Below are positions 35,802 to 53,897 of a stretch of 64,000 bases of DNA, in pieces. This DNA is from Planctomycetota bacterium. GTDB lineage: Bacteria; Planctomycetota; UBA11346. The notes beneath the pieces were generated by a model. It saw only the letters and a list, made by a program, of their open reading frames with translations. It was not told the DNA's origin and made no database searches. The stretch lies in the NCBI GenBank assembly GCA_014193115.1, contig BJHQ01000004.1, forward strand, positions 248,001-312,000, given 5' to 3'. Position numbers and translations under genes: made by a program. How positions within the stretch are numbered: position 1 is the stretch's first letter; each line of letters starts with the position of its first letter.

Positions 35802-36166
35802 CCGTCGGCCCGATGGCGATCCGGTCGATGACGGCGACCGGCTCGCCCGCCTCGCGGATCGTTTGGCTTGCGGCCATCGCACCCTTCGATTACCCGTCAG
35901 GGTCGCAGCAACGATCTGCGCCGACGCCTGGCAACCATGCCCGGAGTGACCGTGACCCGCTGGAGCCTGGCGACATGACCGTCTCTCGATCTGGGGGCGA
36001 CGGCGTCCCGTCGACCAATTTTCCCAGGAAGCCAAGCGCATTATCAATTTCCTGCGATGACCCCATTGCCATTTCTGCGAATTTCATTCGTAGATTTCAT
36101 CACGTGCCAGCCCGGCTCCCCAGCGCTGTCGTAATAGCCAAAAGTTTTATTTGCCCATCCCCATGA
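35798..36166 (+). CDS. Hypothetical small protein, or remnant of a decayed gene
   Basis: This 360-base stretch between the Wzz-like and epimerase genes holds an open frame of 122 codons whose ATG overlaps the Wzz stop (ATGA) and whose stop overlaps the epimerase ATG (ATGA). That arrangement suggests a translated link in the operon. The product (with ARSDRDPLEPGDMTVSRSGG) matches nothing I recognise. An overlapping frame also reads plausibly (DDGDRLARLADRLACGHRTL) until a stop at 35947-35949, so a frameshifted old gene is the alternative. No function is offered. Confidence 0.35.
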   Translation: MTVGPMAIRSMTATGSPASRIVWLAAIAPFDYPSGSQQRSAPTPGNHARSDRDPLEPGDMTVSRSGGDGVPSTNFPRKPSALSISCDDPIAISANFIRRFHHVPARLPSAVVIAKSFICPSP

Positions 36167-37167
36167 TCCTCGTCACTGGCGCCGCCGGATTTATTGGTTC
36201 GCATGTTTGCCACCGCCTGCTCGACGCCGGTCGGCCGGTGCTGGGCCTGGACAACCTCAACGCCTACTACGACCCGGCTTTGAAACAGGCCCGCCTGGAT
36301 CGGCTGCTTGCCCGTCCCGCTTTCACTTTCGCCAAGGTGGATATTATCGATCGCCAGGCCATGCCGGCATTTTTCGCCCACCATCAGCCAACCCGGGTGG
36401 TCCACCTGGCGGCCCAGGCCGGCGTCCGCTACAGCCTGGAAAACCCCCACGCCTACGCCGACGCCAATCTGACGGGATTTCTCACCATCCTCGAAGGCTG
36501 CCGAGCGGTACGCTGTACTCATCTCGTTTACGCCAGTACCAGCTCGGTCTATGGCCTGGACACGGCCATGCCCTTCAGCGAGCACCAGCTCGCCGACCAT
36601 CCGATCACCCTGTATGCGGCCACCAAGCGCGCCAACGAACTGATGGCGCACAGCTATGCGCATCTCTTCGGCCTGCCCTGCACGGGTCTGCGTTTTTTCA
36701 CGGTCTATGGCCCCTGGGGACGACCGGACATGGCGCTGTTCAAGTTCACCAAAGCCATGCTCACCGGCGAGCCGATCGACATCTACAACCACGGAAGCAT
36801 GGTCCGGGACTTCACCTACGTCGACGACATCGTCGAAGGCATCGTCCGCATCCTCGACCGCCCTGCCGCATCTGCCACGACCTTCGATCCGGCCAAGCCC
36901 GACCCGGCGCTCAGCTCGGCTCCCTGGCGGGTTTACAATATCGGCAACAGCCAACCGGTCGAATTGCTCCGCTACATCGACGCGGTCGAGTCGGCGCTTG
37001 GCGTGAAGGCCATCCGCCGCTTCCTGCCCATGCAGCCGGGCGACGTGCCAGCCACCCAGGCGGATACGAGCGATCTGGCCCGGGACGTCGATTTCCGCCC
37101 GGACACCACAGTAGAAGAAGGTGTACGCCGGTTCGTTGGTTGGTATAGGGAATACCATCGGAAATGA
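36163..37167 (+). CDS. NAD-dependent UDP-sugar 4-epimerase (UDP-glucuronate epimerase-like)
   Basis: Extended short-chain dehydrogenase of 334 residues: MILVTGAAGFIGSHVC is the NAD-binding start, VVHLAAQAGVRYSLENPHAY, YASTSSVYGL and LYAATKRANELMA (YxxxK) follow. The AGVRYSLENP block and GPWGRPDMALFKFTKAMLTG resemble UDP-glucuronate 4-epimerases (CapI/GlaKP), making UDP-GalA from UDP-GlcA. ATG 36163 begins at the conserved strand; a TTG at 36151 could add four residues. A small gene follows with a four-base overlap. Confidence 0.9.
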   Translation: MILVTGAAGFIGSHVCHRLLDAGRPVLGLDNLNAYYDPALKQARLDRLLARPAFTFAKVDIIDRQAMPAFFAHHQPTRVVHLAAQAGVRYSLENPHAYADANLTGFLTILEGCRAVRCTHLVYASTSSVYGLDTAMPFSEHQLADHPITLYAATKRANELMAHSYAHLFGLPCTGLRFFTVYGPWGRPDMALFKFTKAMLTGEPIDIYNHGSMVRDFTYVDDIVEGIVRILDRPAASATTFDPAKPDPALSSAPWRVYNIGNSQPVELLRYIDAVESALGVKAIRRFLPMQPGDVPATQADTSDLARDVDFRPDTTVEEGVRRFVGWYREYHRK

Positions 37168-37508: not shown

Positions 37509-38840
37509 ATGCCCCATCCCACAGATCACCTCGTGGACGAGCTTATTTCCCGTCATACCTCAATTGCAATAGTAGGACTGGGCTACGTGGGGCTTCCATT
37601 AGCGCTTTGTCTGGCTCGTCATTTTAGAGTCATAGGTTTTGATCTCAATCAGATGAAGGTTGCTGCCTTGCAAGCGGGTCGCGATCCAATTGGCGAATGC
37701 GGGGACGAAGCAATTGCCTCACGTCTTGCCGATGGTTCTTTTGTTGCTACTACTGACGCCGCCGCGCTAGCAGGATGTCGGTTCATCATTGTAGCGGTAC
37801 CCACTCCGGTTGATCGTGCCAAACGTCCAGACATGAGTCCCTTGGTTGGTGCCAGTACCACTGTGGGTCGGTATTTGGGTAAAGGCACCGTAGTGGTCTA
37901 CGAAAGCACAGTCTACCCCGGAACTACTGAGGAAGTTTGCATTCCGGTGGTGGAGCAAATGAGCGGTTTGAAGGTTGGAGCCGACTTCGCATATGGATAT
38001 AGCCCGGAGCGGATAAACCCTGGTGATCGTGAACATACTGTTGATAAAATTCGCAAAGTCGTATCGGGAATGGATACAGCAACCTGCGACTGCGTTGCGG
38101 CTGTTTATGGCACTGCCATAACAGCAGGCGTATATGCAGCGGCTTCAGTTAGAGTTGCCGAAGCAGCAAAAGTAATTGAAAATACTCAGCGTGATCTCAA
38201 TATCGCGCTAATGAACGAGTTGGCACTGATTTTTCACCGTATCGGCATTGATACTGGCGATGTTCTTGCCGCAGCAGGAACTAAATGGAATTTTCTGTCA
38301 TTCAAGCCTGGGTTAGTGGGTGGACATTGTATTGGAGTAGATCCATATTATTTAACTCATAAGGCGGAGGAGGCAGGTTATCATCCACAGGTTATCCTTG
38401 CCGGACGCCGCATTAATGATGGTATGGGCGCATGGGTTGGCCAGGAATGTGTGCGCCTTCTATCCCAGTCAGGCAGACCTATCGCTGGAGCAAGGGTTTT
38501 AGTGCTGGGACTGACCTTTAAAGAAGACTGCCCAGACGTTCGCAATACCAAGGTTGTGGATATTATTGAGGAATTGCGTCGCTTTGGCTGCCGCCCCATC
38601 GTCTGCGATCCCGTAGCTAATGCGAATGAAACTCGTCATGAATATGGCATTGATCTGCTTCCTTTAGTTCCCTTGCCGGCATGCGATGCTATCATTCTCG
38701 CTGTAGCGCATCGTCAGTTTAAGGACCTGCCACTTGAGGAAATTTCTCGAGCCTGTGCTAACGGTCCAGTACTGGACGTGAAAGGGATGCTGGACCGCAA
38801 GCAAGCGACCCGTGCTGGTATCCATCCTTGGCGGATGTGA
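37509..38840 (+). CDS. UDP-N-acetyl-hexosamine 6-dehydrogenase (WbpA/WbpO/TviB group)
   Basis: NAD-dependent UDP-sugar dehydrogenase of 443 residues: Rossmann motif IVGLGYVGLPLALCLARHF (21-39), VPTPVD, YESTVYPGTTEEVC, the catalytic cysteine C274 in GGHCIGVDPYYLTHKAEEAG, and GLTFKEDCPDVRNTK. It oxidises C6 of UDP-GlcNAc (or GalNAc) to the uronic acid, first step of the diacetamido-mannuronate route that continues at 39940. Sequence style fits WbpA/TviB rather than UDP-glucose dehydrogenase. Codon use is more AT-rich than in upstream genes. Length normal. Confidence 0.9.
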   Translation: MPHPTDHLVDELISRHTSIAIVGLGYVGLPLALCLARHFRVIGFDLNQMKVAALQAGRDPIGECGDEAIASRLADGSFVATTDAAALAGCRFIIVAVPTPVDRAKRPDMSPLVGASTTVGRYLGKGTVVVYESTVYPGTTEEVCIPVVEQMSGLKVGADFAYGYSPERINPGDREHTVDKIRKVVSGMDTATCDCVAAVYGTAITAGVYAAASVRVAEAAKVIENTQRDLNIALMNELALIFHRIGIDTGDVLAAAGTKWNFLSFKPGLVGGHCIGVDPYYLTHKAEEAGYHPQVILAGRRINDGMGAWVGQECVRLLSQSGRPIAGARVLVLGLTFKEDCPDVRNTKVVDIIEELRRFGCRPIVCDPVANANETRHEYGIDLLPLVPLPACDAIILAVAHRQFKDLPLEEISRACANGPVLDVKGMLDRKQATRAGIHPWRM

Positions 38841-38842
38841 CT

Positions 38843-39928
38843 ATGCCCCCTGCGGCTCAACCACACGTTGCGGTGATTGGCGGTGGCATCAATGGTGTCA
38901 TGTCAGCTTGGATGCTCGCACGCGATGGAAATAGAGTAGATTTGTTTGAACGTCGAAGTCTCATGGGCGAAACGTCCTCTGCTTCAACTAAACTGTTACA
39001 TGGAGGCCTCCGGTATCTTGAACATGGATCGTTCCGTTTAGTACGCGAGGCACTACGCGAACGGGCTTGGTGGATAAGCCAGGCCCCCCAAATTGCAGGT
39101 AGATTGCGAGTAATTCTACCAATTTGGAAATGGTCGCGGCGCCCACGTTGGATAATCGATATTGGTATGCGGCTTTATTCCCACCTGGCTGGTTCCGCGA
39201 GTCTCGGACCTCATAGTTGGATGAGCAGTGCCCAGCTTCTGAAGATTGCTCCCCACCTGCGCAACGAGGGTCTAATGGGGGGTTTTAGTTTCTGGGATGG
39301 GAAAATGGACGACCGAGCGCTCGGTCTTTGGGCGGCATCGCGTGCTCACGCCGCTGGAGTGAGCATACAGTCAGGTCGGCAGGTAGATCGAATAAAATTG
39401 GATGGAAGCCTCATCATGAATGGTTTGACTCAGCGATATGATCATGTTGTGAATTGTGCTGGCCCCTGGGCACGCAGCTTACTTGACCGCAGCGGCATTA
39501 GATCTCGTCATGATCTGGACTTGGTGCGTGGAAGCCACTTAGTCTTTGATCGCAAAATTGAAGTCGGTGTCCTCGCTGAAGTCCCAGATAGCCAACGCAT
39601 AGCCTTTCTTTTACCTTGGAAGAGTGGGTCTCTGCTCGGTACCACCGAGGTACGCCAGAAAATAGACGAACCTATTATCTGTTCTGAGAAAGAGCGGGCG
39701 GACCTCATTGCTTTTCACGACAGTATATGTAGAGTGCCATTACACCTAAATGAGATTCGGTCGACCTTCGCTGGTCTCAGGCCTTTAGTGCGAAGCGCAG
39801 ACGATCCAAGCCGCGCTACTCGTGAGTATGTACTAGAGCGCCAAGGCGCAATTCTTACCGTATTCGGCGGTAAATGGACCACGGCCCGTCGGCTGGGTCT
39901 GCAGGTAGCACGTACCCTTCGGAGTTAA
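38843..39928 (+). CDS. GlpD-like FAD-dependent oxidoreductase, lacking the C-terminal domain
   Basis: Protein of 361 residues with a dinucleotide-binding start HVAVIGGGINGVMSAWMLAR, the glycerol-3-phosphate-dehydrogenase signature STKLLHGGLRYLEHGSF, and the closing FAD loop VFGGKWTTARRL. Aerobic GlpD is over 500 residues; the C-terminal DAO_C domain is absent here. It sits between the UDP-sugar 6-dehydrogenase and WlbA genes, so a role in sugar-nucleotide oxidation or in polyol-phosphate oxidation for the glycan is possible. It starts two bases after the dehydrogenase stop. Family certain; substrate unknown. Confidence 0.8.
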   Translation: MPPAAQPHVAVIGGGINGVMSAWMLARDGNRVDLFERRSLMGETSSASTKLLHGGLRYLEHGSFRLVREALRERAWWISQAPQIAGRLRVILPIWKWSRRPRWIIDIGMRLYSHLAGSASLGPHSWMSSAQLLKIAPHLRNEGLMGGFSFWDGKMDDRALGLWAASRAHAAGVSIQSGRQVDRIKLDGSLIMNGLTQRYDHVVNCAGPWARSLLDRSGIRSRHDLDLVRGSHLVFDRKIEVGVLAEVPDSQRIAFLLPWKSGSLLGTTEVRQKIDEPIICSEKERADLIAFHDSICRVPLHLNEIRSTFAGLRPLVRSADDPSRATREYVLERQGAILTVFGGKWTTARRLGLQVARTLRS

Positions 39929-39939
39929 ACACCCCATCC

Positions 39940-40998
39940 ATGCGCCACTCCCCCATTACAGATCGCCGGATCCGGTTTGCCCTTGCGGGCTGCGGACGGA
40001 TTTCCCCTAACCATGTCGGAGCATTGAAGCAGCATGCTGACCGTGCCGAACTAGTGGCAGCCTGCGACACCGATTCGGCGGCGCTGGCATCCGTTGTCAC
40101 CGGAAATTCTGGGGTACAGGGATTTCAATCACTAACGGATTTGTTAGCAGCACGATTAGCAGATGTGGTAGTCTTGGCAACGCCCAGTGGGTTGCACTCG
40201 ACGCAAGCCGTCCAGTGCGCCAGAGCCGGTGTCCATGTTATGACAGAAAAGCCAATGGCTACCCGGTGGGTTGACGGAAAAGCGATGGTGGCGGCCTGTG
40301 ATGCAGCCGGCATTCACCTGTTTGTGATCAAGCAAAACCGTCGCAATGCGACACTTCAACTGCTAAAACGTGCGGTGGAACGTAAGCGGTTTGGGCGAAT
40401 TTATATGGTGACAATAAACGTTTTTTGGCAGAGACCGCAGTCGTATTATGATTCGGCTAAATGGCGAGGTACGTGGGAATTCGACGGTGGGGCATTCATG
40501 AACCAAGCTAGCCACTATGTTGATCTCATCGATTGGCTCATCGGCCCGGTGGAAAGTGTTTTTGCATATACTGGCACTTTGGCACGCGATATCCAAGTCG
40601 AAGACACGGGGGTCTTGGCAATTAAATGGCGCTCTGGCGCAATGGGTAGTATGAATGTTACGATGTTGACTTATCCGAAAAATCTAGAAGGAACTATAAC
40701 TATCATTGGAGAAAATGGTACGGTGCGCATCGGGGGTTTGGCAGTAAACGAGATTCAGCATTGGCAGTTTGCCGACAGCGATCCAGATGATGCATTGGTT
40801 AAGAATGCGAGTTATCAGACCACTTCAGTGTATGGTTTCGGCCATCCTATGTATTATGATAATGTTATTAAGGTTCTTCGCGGCGAAGCAGATCCAGAGA
40901 CTGATGGAAGAGAAGGGCTGCGCTCCCTTGAGGTTCTCATTGCAGCATACACAAGCGCCAGAGATGGAAGAAAAATTTCACTTCCACTGGAGCACTGA
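39940..40998 (+). CDS. wlbA: UDP-GlcNAc-uronate 3-dehydrogenase, WlbA/WbpB-like
   Basis: Gfo/Idh/MocA-family enzyme of 352 residues: [20 protein letters not shown] is the NAD motif, [10 protein letters not shown] the conserved EKP block, and [20 protein letters not shown] with its histidine fits WlbA/WbpB. These enzymes oxidise C3 of UDP-GlcNAc-uronate, which WlbC then aminates. The neighbouring acetyltransferase, aminotransferase and 2-epimerase support the call. ATG 39940 opens the domain; upstream codons lack similarity. Confidence 0.88.
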
Positions 40999-41000
40999 TA

Positions 41001-41561
41001 ATGAGCTCAACGATACACCCATCGGCAATCATCGATTCAGGAGCTATACTCGGTGAAGGAACTCGAGTTTGGCATTGGGTGCATATATGTGCTGGTGCAC
41101 GCATAGGCCGAAACTGCTCATTCGGCCAAGGGGTGTTTGTTGGTAATGTTACTATTGGCGACGGTGTCAAAGTGCAAAATAACGTTTCGATTTACGATGG
41201 CGTTACCATTGAAGATGAAGTGTTTTGTGGGCCATCTATGGTTTTTACCAATGTTTATAATCCGCGCAGTCATATTGTGCGTAAGCATGAATATAAACCG
41301 ACTTTGGTAAGACGACGTGCGTCAATTGGCGCAAATGTCACTATTGTTTGCGGCACAACCATTGGAACTAATGCCTTCATCGGAGCCGGTGCGGTGATTA
41401 ACCGTGATGTACCTGATTTTGCCTTAATGGCTGGAGTGCCAGCGCGGCGCATTGGATGGATGTGCGCCTGCGGCGTCAGACTTCCAGCGAGTGACATCAG
41501 TATGTGTCAGGCATGCAGTACTACCTATCGTATCGCAGAAGGGGTATGTACGCCATGCTAA
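41001..41561 (+). CDS. wlbB: UDP-3-amino-GlcNAc-uronate N-acetyltransferase, WlbB/WbpD-like
   Basis: Left-handed beta-helix acetyltransferase of 186 residues: hexapeptide repeats run from [20 protein letters not shown] through [20 protein letters not shown] and [20 protein letters not shown]. The C-terminal cysteines (CACGVRL, then [18 protein letters not shown]) may bind zinc. WlbB/WbpD acetylates the 3-amino group using acetyl-CoA, giving UDP-diacetamido-glucuronate. It begins two bases after wlbA and overlaps the aminotransferase start by seven bases. Confidence 0.88.
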
Positions 41562-43015
41562 TCACCGACCTCTTGCTTTCACCAACATGCGTTGGCGAAG
41601 CCCTGCACGATCCCCATGGTGCATCAGCGGCGGCACTTACCCGGGCTAAATTGTCAGGTATTCGCTGCTGGTTAGCCGTCGGCGCGGTGGGCGTCTATCG
41701 CACGGTTGCGCCATCTTTAACGGGCCTCGCCGAACTGGCGGCGGACTGTCAGTGGTTAAGTGCTTTATCTTGCGATGTTGATCTTCAAGAAGACGATCCC
41801 ATAGGTAAAATTTTGACTCGCGGATTAATTCGCCTCGGACCAAATAGTCATTTACTTGGACGCCGCAATAATGAGCTCACGCCGGAAGCTTTGATTGCGC
41901 TATCTCTAGACGCTCAGCCTATTGCCTTTATTGATCTAGCCCGGCAACAGGATAATATTCGGCCAGACTTGGAACGGCGCATCCATGCAGTGTTACGGCA
42001 TGGCCATTACATTATGGGCCCAGAAATTGCAGAGTTGGAAGCAAGGTTGGTTGAATATGTCGGCGTAAAGCACGCCATCACCTGCGCCAGCGGCACAGAC
42101 AGTCTGGAGATCGCCATGCGGGCCCTGGGTATAGGTCCCGGCGATGAAGTGATCACCACACCCTTCACCTGGATTAGTACGGCCGAAACCATTGCCCAGG
42201 TCGGGGCCAAGCCGGTCTTTGTCGATATAGAGGAAGCTTTCTTCAATATCAATATCGATCTGATTGAGTCTGCCATCTCGCCGCGCACCAAGGCGATCAT
42301 GCCGGTCAGTTTGTTCGGTCAGATGCCCGACTATGAGCGTATCAACGCTATTGCCACCAAGCATGGCCTGCCGGTCATCGAGGACGGTGCGCAATCCTTC
42401 GGCGCCACGCAACGCGGACGTCGCAGTTGCAGGGTGACCACCATCGGGTCGACCAGTTTCTTCCCCGCCAAGCCCCTCGGCTGCTATGGCGACGGCGGCG
42501 CCCTGTTCACCGACGACGACTCCCTGGCGACGCGGATGCGCGCCATCCGCACCCATGGCGGGGAAAAACGGCATCATCATCCCTATATCGGCATGAATGG
42601 CCGTCTGGACACCCTGCAAGCGGCAATCGTGCTGGCCAAGCTGGAGAGTTGGGACGACGAGGTGAATCAACGTGGTCGGATTGGGGCGAACTACACGGAC
42701 CAGCTGCGTGGTCATGGCAGTCTCATTCCGCCCGGCGTGATGGCAGGCAATACCCATGTCTATGCCCAATACACCATCCGCAGTCCCCGACGCGATGCCG
42801 TGGCTGAGAAACTGAAGGCCGCCGGCATCCCCACGGCCGTGTACTATCCCAAATGCTTGCACGAACAGCCGTGCTTCGCCTCGTGTGGATACCGGCTGGG
42901 TGATTTTCCGGAGGCGGAACGTGCGAGTCGTGAAGTGCTCAGTCTGCCGATGCATCCGGATCTGGAAGAAACGACCCAGCAACGCATCCTGGCGGTCTTG
43001 GCGGAAAGCGCATAA
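41555..43015 (+). CDS. WlbC/WbpE-like aminotransferase with extra N-terminal domain
   Basis: Fusion of 486 residues. From about residue 126 it is a DegT/DnrJ/EryC1 PLP aminotransferase ([60 protein letters not shown], and the Schiff-base lysine in [20 protein letters not shown]), the step that aminates C3 before WlbB acts. The first roughly 125 residues ([60 protein letters not shown]) are not part of that family; the fold looks faintly PIN-like. Composition shifts from AT-rich to GC-rich within the gene near 42060. ATG 41555 overlaps the wlbB stop. Confidence 0.82.
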
Positions 43016-43027
43016 AGGGTGCATGCG

Positions 43028-44080
43028 ATGAAGATCGTCACCATTGTCGGCGCCCGCCCGCAATTCATCAAGGCCGCCCCCGTGAGCCGCGCCCTGCGGG
43101 AGCGCCATCAGGAGATCCTTGTTCACACCGGCCAGCATTACGATGACAACATGTCCGGGGTGTTCTTCCGGGAACTGGGGATCCCCGAACCCGAGGTCCA
43201 CCTGGGGGCCGGTGGCGGATCCCATGGCGCCCAAACCGCCGCCATGTTGACCGGCATCGAAGGCGTGCTGCAGCGCGAACGCCCCGACCGGGTGCTGGTC
43301 TACGGCGATACCAATTCCACACTCGCCGGCGCCCTGGCTGCGGCCAAGCTCCATGTCCCGGTCGCCCATGTCGAAGCCGGCCTGCGCAGTTTCAATCGCC
43401 GCATGCCCGAAGAGATCAATCGGGTGGTCACCGACCACCTCAGCGACCTGCTCTTCTGCCCCAGCGAGATCTCGCAACGTCATCTGGCGGCTGAGGGCAT
43501 CGTCTCCGGCGTGCATGTGGTGGGCGATGTGATGGCCGATGCTCTGTTGAACGCGGCGCGTCGAGCCGACGCCTCGCAGATCCTGATCCAGCACCAGCTC
43601 TCCCCCCGTTCCTACGTCCTGGCCACTGTCCATCGGGCCGATAACACCGACGATGGCGTCCGGTTGGCTGCCATCCTCCAGGCGTTCGCCGACATTGGCC
43701 GTACCATCCTGTTCCCGGTCCACCCGCGCACCCGCAAGGCGATCGCCGCCGCCGGACTGTCCGTGCCATCGAATGTCCGCCCCTGCGAGCCGCTCGGTTA
43801 TCTGGATCTGGTCAGGGCCCTGCGCGATGCCGACTTGGTGTTGACCGATTCAGGCGGTCTGCAAAAGGAGGCCTATTGGCTGTCGGTCCCCTGCATCACC
43901 TTGCGCGATGAGACCGAGTGGGTCGAGACGGTCGAGACCGGTTGGAACCGCATCGTCGGTGCCGACCGGGCGGCCATCGTGGCGGCGGCGGCCGATGGCC
44001 GACGTCCCGGCGACCATCCAGCCTTGTATGGCGGCGATGGACAGGCAACGGGTAAGTTAGTGGGGCTGATCCAGGGATGA
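43028..44080 (+). CDS. UDP-N-acetylglucosamine 2-epimerase family (WecB/WbpI-like)
   Basis: Hydrolysing/non-hydrolysing UDP-sugar 2-epimerase of 350 residues: IVTIVGARPQFIKAAPVSRA, VHTGQHYDDNMSG, VYGDTNSTLAGALAA, VAHVEAGLRSFNRRMPEEIN and LTDSGGLQKEAYWL. In this cassette it most likely acts as WbpI, turning UDP-diacetamido-glucuronate into the mannuronate isomer. A WecB role (UDP-ManNAc) cannot be excluded, and ManNAc could also feed the NeuB route. ATG 43028 follows 12 bases after the aminotransferase stop. Confidence 0.9.
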   Translation: MKIVTIVGARPQFIKAAPVSRALRERHQEILVHTGQHYDDNMSGVFFRELGIPEPEVHLGAGGGSHGAQTAAMLTGIEGVLQRERPDRVLVYGDTNSTLAGALAAAKLHVPVAHVEAGLRSFNRRMPEEINRVVTDHLSDLLFCPSEISQRHLAAEGIVSGVHVVGDVMADALLNAARRADASQILIQHQLSPRSYVLATVHRADNTDDGVRLAAILQAFADIGRTILFPVHPRTRKAIAAAGLSVPSNVRPCEPLGYLDLVRALRDADLVLTDSGGLQKEAYWLSVPCITLRDETEWVETVETGWNRIVGADRAAIVAAAADGRRPGDHPALYGGDGQATGKLVGLIQG

Positions 44081-44280
44081 CGGATTGTGATCTGCCTTGC
44101 CTGTACCAGGCCCCTCGTCAAACCGGACGTCCAGGCTTCCCGCGTCCGACTTTCGAATTCGCCCTGCTGTGCCACCCATCCGGGATCAATCTTGTCGCTG
44201 GAAAACCTCCCATGTCAGTTCACCAACCAGTTGCTGACCATCGCTTACGCCTCGCCAGGGTGGGCTCCGGTCCACTAACA

Positions 44281-45831
44281 ATGCCACCATCAATGCATTC
44301 CCGTGGATTGGGGTGTCTTCTCGTTATGGCCATACTGGTCGGATGTCACGAAGACAGTAAGGTTCCAGAGAAACAGAGCATAGTTGTAGCTCCGGTTGAG
44401 ATGTTGCGGGAAAATGGTAACGGTTGGTTTCAAGACCTGACGATCAACGCACATGCCACCTCCGGATTGGCAGTTTACCGCAGCGTATTGACGAACAACG
44501 CATTTTTCACGGGTGAATCTCTGGAAATCACCGCCGAAGGCGACATTGTTATTTCTTTTAATCAACCGGGTGATCATCAGTATGCGCCCGCCGATCCGGT
44601 CACCATACAGATACATGCTGAAACTAACGTCTCACGCCTGTGGCGGACCGTGCTCCGGCCTTACTTGGCCGATCCGCTATGGTTACCGCGCGACGTGTAT
44701 GATGCCGGACATGCGATGATGATGCCAGTGCTCGCAGCGCATGATCGCCAGCGTTCCGACTGGCAGCACGACCTGCGCGAACATTACAGGCGCTTCATGT
44801 CTGATCGGGCAGCGCTCGATTCGGGTCTACTCAATCGCCTGCAGTATCTGAATACCTTCGCCGTGTTTCTCTCCTTGTCGACTGGTACCAATAGCGATAA
44901 CGAAATTCGTGACCAGGTCGAGTACCTGACCGCCGAATGGCACAGGGCCTGGTTTCTGCCTGCGTGGCAATGGGGGCGCACGCCTTTTCCTGGCGGTATG
45001 CCCGAGCGCATCGCTTGGAAACTTACCACTCCCAATCCTTCACTCACCTATTACCGAGCCATCATCGATGAGGAAGAGTTTGGTTTGGCGATCGCCTCTA
45101 GCCTCATTGTCGCCCGACGCAAACTGGGCATGGCGGATGATCCTGACATGATCGCTGCCCTGGCTTGGGCTGGCACGATTTATCGTGATGAGATGGTGGC
45201 CCATCCTGATGGAGGCATCATCTTTCAACCAGGAGTATATCGCGATCATCGCGACTATCAATATGCTGGCCACCAGGTGCTGGCCCCATCGCTTCCACCA
45301 AGCCCGGTTGATGGAATCGGTCCGGACACCTCACATAGCCACCGCACACTAGTATTCCTCAGGCAACACACGATGGCGGCGCAGTTGCTGGGCCAAGATG
45401 CAACGGTATTCATCCGGACAGCGCGTGGCTTTGCACAGCGCTTTCGTTGCCTGCTGAACGAACGGACCTTGAATGGGCGTCGTTTCTGGTCGACGGTCAA
45501 CTATACCAGCGGTCATGATGGCTTGTACCGCTATCGCTATGTGACCACGTCGGAATCCGGTTATGGCCCTGGTGAACTGAGTGGAACCATGACATTAGGC
45601 TGGTGGGGAGGTAACGCAGATGGTGGACTTGCTGACTTCTACGGAGATATGCTGACAACCTTTCCGCTGTCAGAGGCTGCAATACGCCTCTATGTGGGTC
45701 CAAATACGACCCGAGTCAGGCATCCCATGATGACCTGGCCAACGTTCTTCAACAACGGCTTTGCTGAACTCCTGGTGCGTTTGGCGTCTGGGCAGAGGGC
45801 TGGACGCAGGCTTGTGTCGACAAATGGCTGA
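44281..45831 (+). CDS. Predicted lipoprotein of unknown function
   Basis: Protein of about 516 residues with a lipoprotein signal: MHSRGLGCLLVMAILVGC ends in a lipobox (LVGC). The mature part is rich in aromatic residues and has alternating helix-like blocks (LQYLNTFAVFLSLS, YRDHRDYQYAGHQV, YGDMLTTFPLSEAA), reminiscent of alpha/alpha-barrel polysaccharide lyases or epimerases, but no named family is recognised. It could act on the glycan in the periplasm or at the outer membrane. Start chosen at ATG 44281 (44293 also possible). Context is the polymer export part of the operon. Confidence 0.6.
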   Translation: MPPSMHSRGLGCLLVMAILVGCHEDSKVPEKQSIVVAPVEMLRENGNGWFQDLTINAHATSGLAVYRSVLTNNAFFTGESLEITAEGDIVISFNQPGDHQYAPADPVTIQIHAETNVSRLWRTVLRPYLADPLWLPRDVYDAGHAMMMPVLAAHDRQRSDWQHDLREHYRRFMSDRAALDSGLLNRLQYLNTFAVFLSLSTGTNSDNEIRDQVEYLTAEWHRAWFLPAWQWGRTPFPGGMPERIAWKLTTPNPSLTYYRAIIDEEEFGLAIASSLIVARRKLGMADDPDMIAALAWAGTIYRDEMVAHPDGGIIFQPGVYRDHRDYQYAGHQVLAPSLPPSPVDGIGPDTSHSHRTLVFLRQHTMAAQLLGQDATVFIRTARGFAQRFRCLLNERTLNGRRFWSTVNYTSGHDGLYRYRYVTTSESGYGPGELSGTMTLGWWGGNADGGLADFYGDMLTTFPLSEAAIRLYVGPNTTRVRHPMMTWPTFFNNGFAELLVRLASGQRAGRRLVSTNG

Positions 45832-52009: not shown

Positions 52010-52788
52010 AACTGCGATTCAGCCAGATCACCGAGACACCCGGTATCGGCGCGACCCGCGAGCAATTGGCGATGATGGCGACGCGCTACGGATTGGCAGC
52101 CCATCATGCCGGCACAGGGCCGATTTTGGAGGTTGCCTGCGGGACGGGCATCGGTCTTGGCCTGTTGGCAGATGCGGCTGGCAGCGTCATAGGCAGCGAC
52201 ATTGACCCGGACAATGTGCGTATCGCCACCGACAATTGGGCCGATGACAAGCGTATCCAGGTTGCTGTGGGTGATGCGGCGAAGTTGACCTTCTCGGATG
52301 GCGCGTTCACCGCTGTTGTCTGTTTCGAAGCGTTGTACTACTTCCCGGATCTTCCGCGATGCATAGCCGAAATGGTGCGCGTCCTGCGGCCCGGCGGGAA
52401 GCTCATCCTTTGCACAGTCAATCCGGGCTGGTCTGGTTTCAACCGAAGTCCTTTTTCCCGCGAATACCCGACGCCAGCCACGCTTTCAACGATGTTAATG
52501 TCCTTAGGCTGCCGTGTCGAGGTGCTTGGCGGCTTCCCTGACCGTCCGCGCGGCTTTGTATCGCGCATGATAGGGATCATCCGCTCAATTGCGGTACGCT
52601 TACACCTGATCCCGGGCTCGATGCGCGGCAAGGAAATGCTGAAAAAGATATTCCTGGGTGGAACGGTTCCGATGCCTACCCGCCTAATTCGTGACACCGC
52701 CCCCACTGAACTATTGCTGCCATTGAGTATTGACACTGCCACCGCCCCGGTAAAAGTATTCTACCTTGTCGCCACGAGGCCCGCATGA
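52006..52788 (+). CDS. Class I SAM-dependent methyltransferase
   Basis: Methyltransferase of 260 residues with motif I ILEVACGTGIGLGLLADAAG, a second acidic residue in GSDIDPDNV, and the post-motif region AVVCFEALYYFPDLPRCIAE. The fold is of the Methyltransf_11/UbiE-like type. The acceptor is probably a sugar or lipid-linked intermediate. ATGA overlaps join it to the TylF-like gene before and the aminotransferase after. Confidence 0.82.
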   Translation: MKLRFSQITETPGIGATREQLAMMATRYGLAAHHAGTGPILEVACGTGIGLGLLADAAGSVIGSDIDPDNVRIATDNWADDKRIQVAVGDAAKLTFSDGAFTAVVCFEALYYFPDLPRCIAEMVRVLRPGGKLILCTVNPGWSGFNRSPFSREYPTPATLSTMLMSLGCRVEVLGGFPDRPRGFVSRMIGIIRSIAVRLHLIPGSMRGKEMLKKIFLGGTVPMPTRLIRDTAPTELLLPLSIDTATAPVKVFYLVATRPA

Positions 52789-53897
52789 GTCACAACATCC
52801 CCTTCTTCAACTATCCCGCCCTCTTCACCAACGAAGAGGAGGAACTGGTCCGCATCTTCCGGGATGTTGGCCGGCGCGGCGCTTTCATCCTGCAGCAGGA
52901 TCTGGCGGATTTCGAGAGCGAACTGGCCCGGTATGTCGGTTGCCGCTTCGCCGTTGGCGTGAACAACGCCACCGATGGCCTGCATTTCGCCTTGGTCGCC
53001 GGAGGCATCAAGCCGGGCGATGAGGTGATCGTGTGCAGCCACACCATGCAGGCGACGGCGGCGGCCGTGCACGCGGCCGGAGGCATCCCGGTGCCGGTCG
53101 AGGTTGGCCCTGACCGCTGCATCGATCCGGCTGCCATCGAACCGGCGATCACGCCACGCACCCGGGCGGTGATGCCGACCGACCTAAATGGGCGCACCTG
53201 CGACATGGATGCCATCCGCGACATCTGCCAGCGTCGCGGCCTGCTGTTGTTCGAGGATGCCGCCCAGGCGCTGGGTGCGAAGTATGAGGGCAAGTCGGCC
53301 GGCACCTTTGGCATAGCCGCAGCGATCAGCTTCTACCCGGCCAAGACCCTCGGCTGCCTGGGCGATGGCGGCGCGGTGATCACTGATGATCCCGAGGTGC
53401 ATCGTGTACTGCTGCAGTTGCGCAGCTTCGGCATGGATGACAGTGGCGAATGCCAGCGCTGGGCCCTGAACAGCCGCCTTGACAACCTGCAGGCGGCGTT
53501 CCTGCGCCATCGCCTGCGGGCCTACGACGGGGTGGTCGCACGGCGACGTGTCATCGCGGCGCGGTACCATGCGCGCCTTGTCACGCTGCCGCGCGTCGGG
53601 CTTCCCCCGGCCCCTGATGCGGATGCCCGCTGGTTTGACATTTATCAGAACTACGAGATTGAGGCAGATCTGCGCGACGGACTGCAGGCGCATCTCAAGG
53701 CCGCCGGCATCGGGACGCTGATCCAGTGGCGAGGCCGTTCGATCCACGGCCAGCTCAAGCTGGGGTTCACCCAGGACCTGCCGCGTACCGACCGTTTCTT
53801 TGCCCGTTGCCTGATGCTGCCGCTGAACATGACCATTACAGATGCCGATATCGATATCGTATGCGATGAGATCGAGGCATTCTACCGTGGTCGTTGA
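52785..53897 (+). CDS. DegT/DnrJ/EryC1-family sugar aminotransferase
   Basis: PLP enzyme of 370 residues: VGVNNATDGLHFALVAGGIK, MPTDLNGRTCDMDAI, FEDAAQALGAKYEGKSAG and SFYPAKTLGCLGDGGAVITD with the Schiff-base lysine. Such enzymes aminate keto-sugar nucleotides. Here it is followed with overlap by a split transketolase, an uncommon combination that may make an unusual amino or branched sugar. Start overlaps the methyltransferase stop by four bases. Confidence 0.9.
   Translation: MSHNIPFFNYPALFTNEEEELVRIFRDVGRRGAFILQQDLADFESELARYVGCRFAVGVNNATDGLHFALVAGGIKPGDEVIVCSHTMQATAAAVHAAGGIPVPVEVGPDRCIDPAAIEPAITPRTRAVMPTDLNGRTCDMDAIRDICQRRGLLLFEDAAQALGAKYEGKSAGTFGIAAAISFYPAKTLGCLGDGGAVITDDPEVHRVLLQLRSFGMDDSGECQRWALNSRLDNLQAAFLRHRLRAYDGVVARRRVIAARYHARLVTLPRVGLPPAPDADARWFDIYQNYEIEADLRDGLQAHLKAAGIGTLIQWRGRSIHGQLKLGFTQDLPRTDRFFARCLMLPLNMTITDADIDIVCDEIEAFYRGR

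Follow-up and report, generated by a model that had tools for sequence, protein, structure and literature searches.

We identified a compact GlpD-type FAD protein, here named GlpDs, that is encoded inside a UDP-uronate cassette of a Planctomycetota bacterium and recurs directly beside wlb genes in at least three phyla. GlpDs most likely catalyses a commonplace reaction in an unexpected setting, and its location suggests, although it does not prove, a part in disposing of the reducing equivalents of the sugar pathway. We tentatively propose, at somewhat less than an even chance, that it is a compact glycerol-3-phosphate (G3P):quinone dehydrogenase, possibly serving as the arm by which electrons leave a G3P/DHAP shuttle that reoxidises NADH from the sugar dehydrogenases. 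The gene lies in a stretch of 64,000 nucleotides (the window), in whose coordinates the cassette and its surroundings read:

36151..37167, + strand: NAD-dependent epimerase/dehydratase family protein, upstream of the cassette (Pfam, NCBIfam)
37509..38840, + strand: UDP-sugar 6-dehydrogenase, the closest model being the TviB-type UDP-GlcNAc 6-dehydrogenase at 463.7 bits against a cut-off of 592 (Pfam, NCBIfam)
38843..39928, + strand: GlpDs, compact GlpD-type FAD oxidoreductase of 361 aa without the C-terminal domain (ORF, Pfam, NCBIfam, PDB match, AlphaFold model)
39940..40998, + strand: WlbA-type UDP-GlcNAcA 3-dehydrogenase, nearest PDB entries 3q2i and 3q2k (Pfam, PDB comparison)
41001..41561, + strand: WlbB-type hexapeptide acetyltransferase (Pfam, NCBIfam, neighbourhood comparison)
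41504..43015, + strand: WlbC-type DegT aminotransferase with the DegT domain from about residue 154, after an N-terminal extension of ~130-140 aa (Pfam, neighbourhood comparison)
43019..44080, + strand: non-hydrolysing UDP-GlcNAc 2-epimerase family protein, WlbD/WbpI-like by position (TIGR00236 above cut-off)

Such a gene set turns UDP-GlcNAc into UDP-ManNAc3NAcA. The upstream 6-dehydrogenase gene stops at 38840 and the ATG of glpDs (38843; an alternative TTG start is at 38828) begins 2 nt later; its stop codon occupies 39926-39928 and the ATG of wlbA follows 11 nt past it, a spacing from which we infer that glpDs and the cassette genes form one operon.

The initial annotation described a truncated GlpD-like flavoenzyme within a UDP-uronate cassette, and this observation is real. 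The protein matches Pfam DAO with 162 bits, and its best NCBIfam model is GlpD NF008899, at 245.7 bits over profile positions 8-375 of 508 and below the equivalog cut-off of 360 bits. Among PDB entries, E. coli GlpD 2qcu matches best (residues 6-363 of the 501 in the chain, E 5e-44). The AlphaFold model (pLDDT 92.2) superposes on the same entry with a Z of 42.1 over 346 residues, spanning chain positions 3-371 of 499; Pfam, the PDB match and this superposition together place GlpDs in the DAO-type FAD fold with GlpD as the nearest solved relative. As the superposition stops near 371, ~130 C-terminal residues of the ~500-aa GlpD are missing. The shortness is not a local truncation, since the C-terminus falls at a similar position in the short relatives, and the open frame together with a conserved family excludes a chance ORF. 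We found no second GlpD-like match in the window genome and no GlpDs match in E. coli genomes. GlpDs shares with GlpD (2qcu, and 2r4e with DHAP) the FAD/DAO fold over the whole model and the HGGLRYLE and FGGKxTT stretches, but differs in its 33% identity, the lost domain, a clade of its own and its place in sugar operons. The type 2 G3P oxidase (Mycoplasma GlpO, 4x9m) also has the DAO fold and a similar length (Z 32.9), but is only 16% identical, and its model NF033460, which has a cut-off of 460 bits, gives 25.8. A shortened G3P dehydrogenase with a CoxG anchor is described from Sulfolobus acidocaldarius; it is reported to reduce quinones but, unlike GlpDs, to resemble a truncated GlpA with CoxG as a partner (PMC11962113). 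A Pfam scan of 37 proteins encoded in the neighbourhood of GlpDs gave no CoxG match.

GlpDs is a short family set apart from GlpD. Our set comprises 40 loci. Scanning named genomes gave 28 of them; the others are the window, those of G019 and G021 from the window's family, the plasmid record L063 and those of another eight genomes, all from one order (G340, G376, G385, G388, G407, G453, G471 and G539). The scan was queried with patterns from the window protein, so the 28 loci lean to its near relatives; L058 is a ~50-residue fragment at a contig end, and L054 and L055 hold truncated or broken genes. Complete members are about 345-390 aa long and 41-61% identical to the window protein. In the same searches they scored above 240 bits, whereas other GlpD-type proteins, mostly of at least 490 aa, stayed below 190, and they form a single clade with support of 100/100 in a tree of 31 rows and 100/99 in one of 39. 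The scores of this family stay below the cut-off of NF008899, the GlpD model now in use. A 390-aa protein of G051 beside a GDPD gene (L015/L062) fell outside the clade and was removed from the counts, and the ORFs of 449-861 aa at L051-L053 were rejected as fusions, their extra N-terminal stretch overlapping an MFS transporter in another frame.

The linkage, for which the initial annotation proposed a survey of wlbA neighbourhoods, recurs elsewhere: 13 of the 40 GlpDs loci, the window included, lie in wlbA clusters, and in all 13 the direct neighbour of GlpDs is a wlb gene. The arrangement varies. The order ugd-glpDs-wlbA is found in the window and L039, wlbA-glpDs-wlbB in five loci (L046, L050, L056, L143 and L151) and wlbA-wlbB-glpDs in two (L042 and L055); L045 has glpDs-wlbB with a full wlbA further upstream, L040 has wlbC-glpDs, and in L034 and L036 GlpDs is divergent from a wlbA whose product is 44% identical to that of the window. 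Where the host has a name, it belongs to the Planctomycetota, the Chlorobiota or the beta- or gammaproteobacteria; Crenobacter luteus is a culturable holder of a wlb-linked GlpDs, whereas that of Quisquiliibacterium has no wlb link. Two further loci, L037 and L165, have GlpDs immediately 5' of wlbC, and in L035 about 2 kb separate it from a wlbB, itself preceded by a WbpB-type gene. Four loci (L061 and the closely related L048, L049 and L057) have an adjoining GDPD gene, whose product releases G3P. The remaining 20 loci, annotated in part, have no common partner beyond close kin; several GlpDs genes adjoin housekeeping genes (putA, CTP synthase, phosphoglucomutase, malic enzyme). We left L047 out of the wlb-linked count: two Gfo/Idh genes upstream in this locus cluster with WlbA, yet the genome has no WlbA at E 1e-60, and a WbpB-type gene is on another contig. 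We found no link of GlpD to WlbA or diacetamido sugars in the open-access papers searched, which does not prove its absence, and no mention of WbpB in PMC6286764.

The joining of GlpDs and wlb genes was probably repeated, as GlpDs distances do not follow those of WlbA while WlbB distances do. In Mantel tests over the 13 loci, WlbA and WlbB distances correlated with r 0.84 and WlbA and WlbC with 0.64 (10 loci), whereas GlpDs gave r 0.11 with WlbA (p 0.28), 0.23 with WlbB (p 0.13) and 0.26 with WlbC (p 0.17); the WlbC values are approximate, since the row for the window was another DegT gene (52785-53897). Against this, the 6-dehydrogenase, run as a control, was likewise uncorrelated with WlbA (r -0.12 over 8 loci). 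On the GlpDs tree, linkage to wlb genes, with wlbC-only loci counted, takes a minimum of 11 changes; on the WlbA tree, linkage to GlpDs takes no fewer than 5. One WlbA branch of nine (L039, L040, L045, L046, L050, L055, L056, L143 and L171; support 95) comes entirely from GlpDs genomes, eight of the nine having been sampled because of GlpDs. GlpDs thus seems to have been recruited to wlb operons more than once, as an optional accessory and not a core step.

We compared the substrate pocket at twelve GlpD-numbered sites (50, 54, 55, 233, 254, 270-272, 317, 332, 354 and 356), part of which we take to line the pocket in the GlpD structure. They read HRYHRTTERRKT in all 37 complete GlpDs, whatever the gene context, and the two truncated rows agree at all 9 sites that they hold. 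E. coli GlpD has the same residue at 11 of the 12, the sole difference being D272E. In E. coli L-2-hydroxyglutarate (L-2-HG) dehydrogenase, LhgD, the sites read HYYYMSSGRSQN, with the alignment uncertain at three of them; most differ, and GlpDs lacks the residue pattern of LhgD. R54, R332 and K354 of GlpD are kept in GlpDs and absent from the aligned places of LhgD in both alignments made, although the two give different LhgD residues at 332, 354 and 356. The comparison was not blind, as some sites were picked after an earlier alignment had shown conservation, and the identity between gene contexts is firmer than the predicted substrate contact of each site. No column cleanly separated wlb-linked from other GlpDs (the best separation was 0.75, with mixed residues), and no WlbA column showed a fixed difference between WlbA with and without GlpDs. 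Together with the GDPD linkage and the exclusion with other GlpD-type genes described below, the identical pocket sites make G3P the probable substrate, in the wlb operons too. Of two outcomes that the initial annotation held against its own idea, absence of co-occurrence elsewhere is contradicted by the linkage, while the second, plain G3P activity, would be expected from the sequence.

The WlbA of the window scored 595.7 bits to 3q2i and 566.8 to 3q2k, which we take to be the C. violaceum and B. pertussis WlbA, against 37.8 to 3o9z and 30.0 to 3oa2, presumably WbpB entries; the WlbA of L036 was also nearest to 3q2k and 3q2i. The C. violaceum and B. pertussis enzymes are reported to be sequential, whereas P. 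aeruginosa WbpB works by a ping-pong mechanism with 2-oxoglutarate (PMC10622841). The earlier premise that WlbA needs 2-oxoglutarate does not fit a protein nearest to the sequential class; judged by its class, the window WlbA would release NADH without 2-oxoglutarate, and that NADH would need another route of reoxidation. The synthesis of UDP-ManNAc3NAcA-type sugars leaves NADH from its dehydrogenase steps, for which organisms with WbpB pay with 2-oxoglutarate. P. aeruginosa WbpB is reported to make D-2-HG that D2HGDH recycles, the loss of D2HGDH lowering O-antigen (PMC8651671). The couple thus resembles our proposal in having a dehydrogenase clear the reduced co-product of a WlbA-class step, but works by 2-oxoglutarate/D-2-HG chemistry.

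A G3P dehydrogenase found repeatedly in wlb operons is a concrete candidate answer to the NADH disposal that accompanies a sequential WlbA, and a G3P/DHAP shuttle would be its simplest use there. The 6-dehydrogenase would yield two NADH per sugar and a sequential-type WlbA one, giving three per UDP-GlcNAc3NAcA. A putative cellular GpsA would reduce DHAP to G3P, GlpDs would oxidise sn-G3P to DHAP on FAD, and the electrons would pass to the membrane quinone pool, the presumed acceptor, without the C-terminal domain of GlpD. We consider this shuttle role in wlb operons possible but short of an even chance. The earlier suggestion of cofactor recycling is thereby plausible in an indirect form, whereas the direct recycling of 2-hydroxyglutarate does not agree with the R54, R332 and K354 pattern. 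A stronger version is unlikely, though not negligible: WlbA and GlpDs may form a dedicated redox relay in which WlbA NADH is discharged onto DHAP, on WlbA directly or via GpsA, and the G3P is burnt by GlpDs into the respiratory chain. Sugar-nucleotide operons would then have taken up this central-metabolism shuttle more than once, in place of 2-oxoglutarate/D-2-HG.

The main alternative, which we regard as a substantial possibility despite also standing below even, is that the cell simply has no G3P dehydrogenase besides GlpDs, which would act in the turnover of phospholipids and glycerophosphodiesters. Its place in surface-sugar loci would then reflect their being hot spots of gene transfer, and it would be uncoupled from the sugar pathway. 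We surveyed 250 genomes of one order, drawn regardless of GlpDs except for the centre G306, itself picked as a GlpDs holder; GlpDs was present in 10, another GlpD-type match only in 114, and WlbA in 29. None of the 10 GlpDs genomes had another GlpD-type match, against 114 of the 240 others (p 0.002), an exclusion that favours the alternative. As at most 8 candidates per genome were scored, a second GlpD could be missed in G407, G388, G471 and G539, while all candidates were scored in the other six; the 114 matches were taken without an individual full-length check and include a few open frames below 450 aa (e.g., G386, G430 and G551). Among the 28 named GlpDs genomes, three (G299, G311 and G319) had an extra GlpD-type match and 12 a WlbA match (E 1e-60). 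The GDPD and housekeeping neighbours point the same way, as do the 27 of 40 loci outside wlbA clusters, which count against a role in the sugar pathway, and the 26 of 29 WlbA genomes of the order without GlpDs, 23 with a GlpD-type match elsewhere and 3 with neither. The pairing of GlpDs with wlbC in L037 and L165, whose genomes yielded no WlbA or WbpB, likewise weighs against the proposed shuttle. A G+C content of 0.50-0.52 at 38-42 kb of the window could reflect imported DNA, though it is equally low at 48-52 kb.

The positional data are harder to reconcile with an uncoupled gene: GlpDs does not just share the locus but directly adjoins a wlb gene in every wlbA-linked case, in several gene orders and at least three phyla. 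In the 250 genomes, too, the association is carried by gene position and not by presence. GlpDs was found in 3 of 29 WlbA genomes and 7 of 221 without WlbA (p 0.096, not significant), but in all three genomes having both, they share one cluster, adjacent in G385 and G453 and with wlbB between them in G306. The WlbA genomes are also enriched for any GlpD-type or GlpDs match (26 of 29 versus 98 of 221, p 2e-6; ~14 expected from a size model with 38 WlbA-negative genomes). This speaks against the alternative but is suggestive only, as shared ancestry was not removed; genome size alone was allowed for, on a small sample, and the co-occurrence may reflect lifestyle or ancestry. WbpB, present in 3 of the 250 genomes, was too rare to serve as a control. 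Among 294 genomes of the window's phylum, WlbA and GlpDs were each found in 2 and together only in G000; G019, a GlpDs holder, was outside this draw. At E 1e-100 the window genome, which is 94% complete, yielded no glycerol kinase match, so growth on glycerol is an unlikely purpose of GlpDs there; the kinase was present in 4 of 13 wlb-linked GlpDs genomes and 16 of 26 others (p 0.096, not significant).

Oxidation by GlpDs of WlbA-made 2-hydroxyglutarate back to 2-oxoglutarate is improbable. It has the P. aeruginosa couple as a precedent, L-2-HG dehydrogenase has the same fold (Z 31.5, 14% identity) and one GlpDs locus, L035, contains a WbpB-type gene, but the window WlbA is nearest to the sequential class and LhgD lacks the arginines and lysine that GlpDs retains. 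D2HGDH belongs to another flavoprotein family than GlpDs, and sn-G3P matches L-2-HG in handedness, whereas the product of WbpB is D-2-HG. Very improbable is the earlier idea that GlpDs oxidises a polyol phosphate destined for the glycan, suggested by gene position: G3P oxidation would remove the polyol-phosphate donor, and no polyol-phosphate transferase was found among eight cassette proteins scanned with Pfam and NCBIfam. Least credible is action on the UDP-sugar, with GlpDs as an FAD 3-dehydrogenase working alongside WlbA or in its place, for although no WlbA or WbpB was found in the genomes of L037 and L165 (WlbA at E 1e-60 in G301 and 1e-100 in G407, WbpB at E 1e-20), the completeness of these genomes is not given, apparent IS21-type transposition genes (by eye) lie beyond wlbC in L165, WlbA is present in 13 loci, the pocket sites equal those of GDPD-linked GlpDs and no residue marks the wlb-linked members.

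Other features of these clusters deserve mention. The cassette is followed by a 584-aa protein (44077-45831) for which neither Pfam (E 0.001) nor NCBIfam (0.01) gave a match, and genome G000 has a second wlbA-wlbB-wlbC cluster without GlpDs (L070; G000:C1:449001-467000), its WlbA being 73% identical. The Candidatus Thiosymbion genome of L039 (G303) has three WlbA places of near-equal score, each at 69% identity, perhaps repeated cassettes or assembly copies. An apparent integral-membrane acyltransferase (by eye) fills the slot between wlbA and wlbB, without GlpDs there, in L127 (9081-10184), L129 (6827-7981) and L171 (2540-4519). N-terminal extensions of WlbC occur in the window (41504-41920), L040 (6320-6781), L055 (9413-9883), L056 (9847-10314) and L143 (11129-11599). 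No PIN match was found in the extension in the window or L070, whereas those of L143 and L055 score above the Pfam PIN_3 cut-off and those of L040 and L056 match below it, a PIN-like domain being fused to the sugar aminotransferase in part of these clusters.
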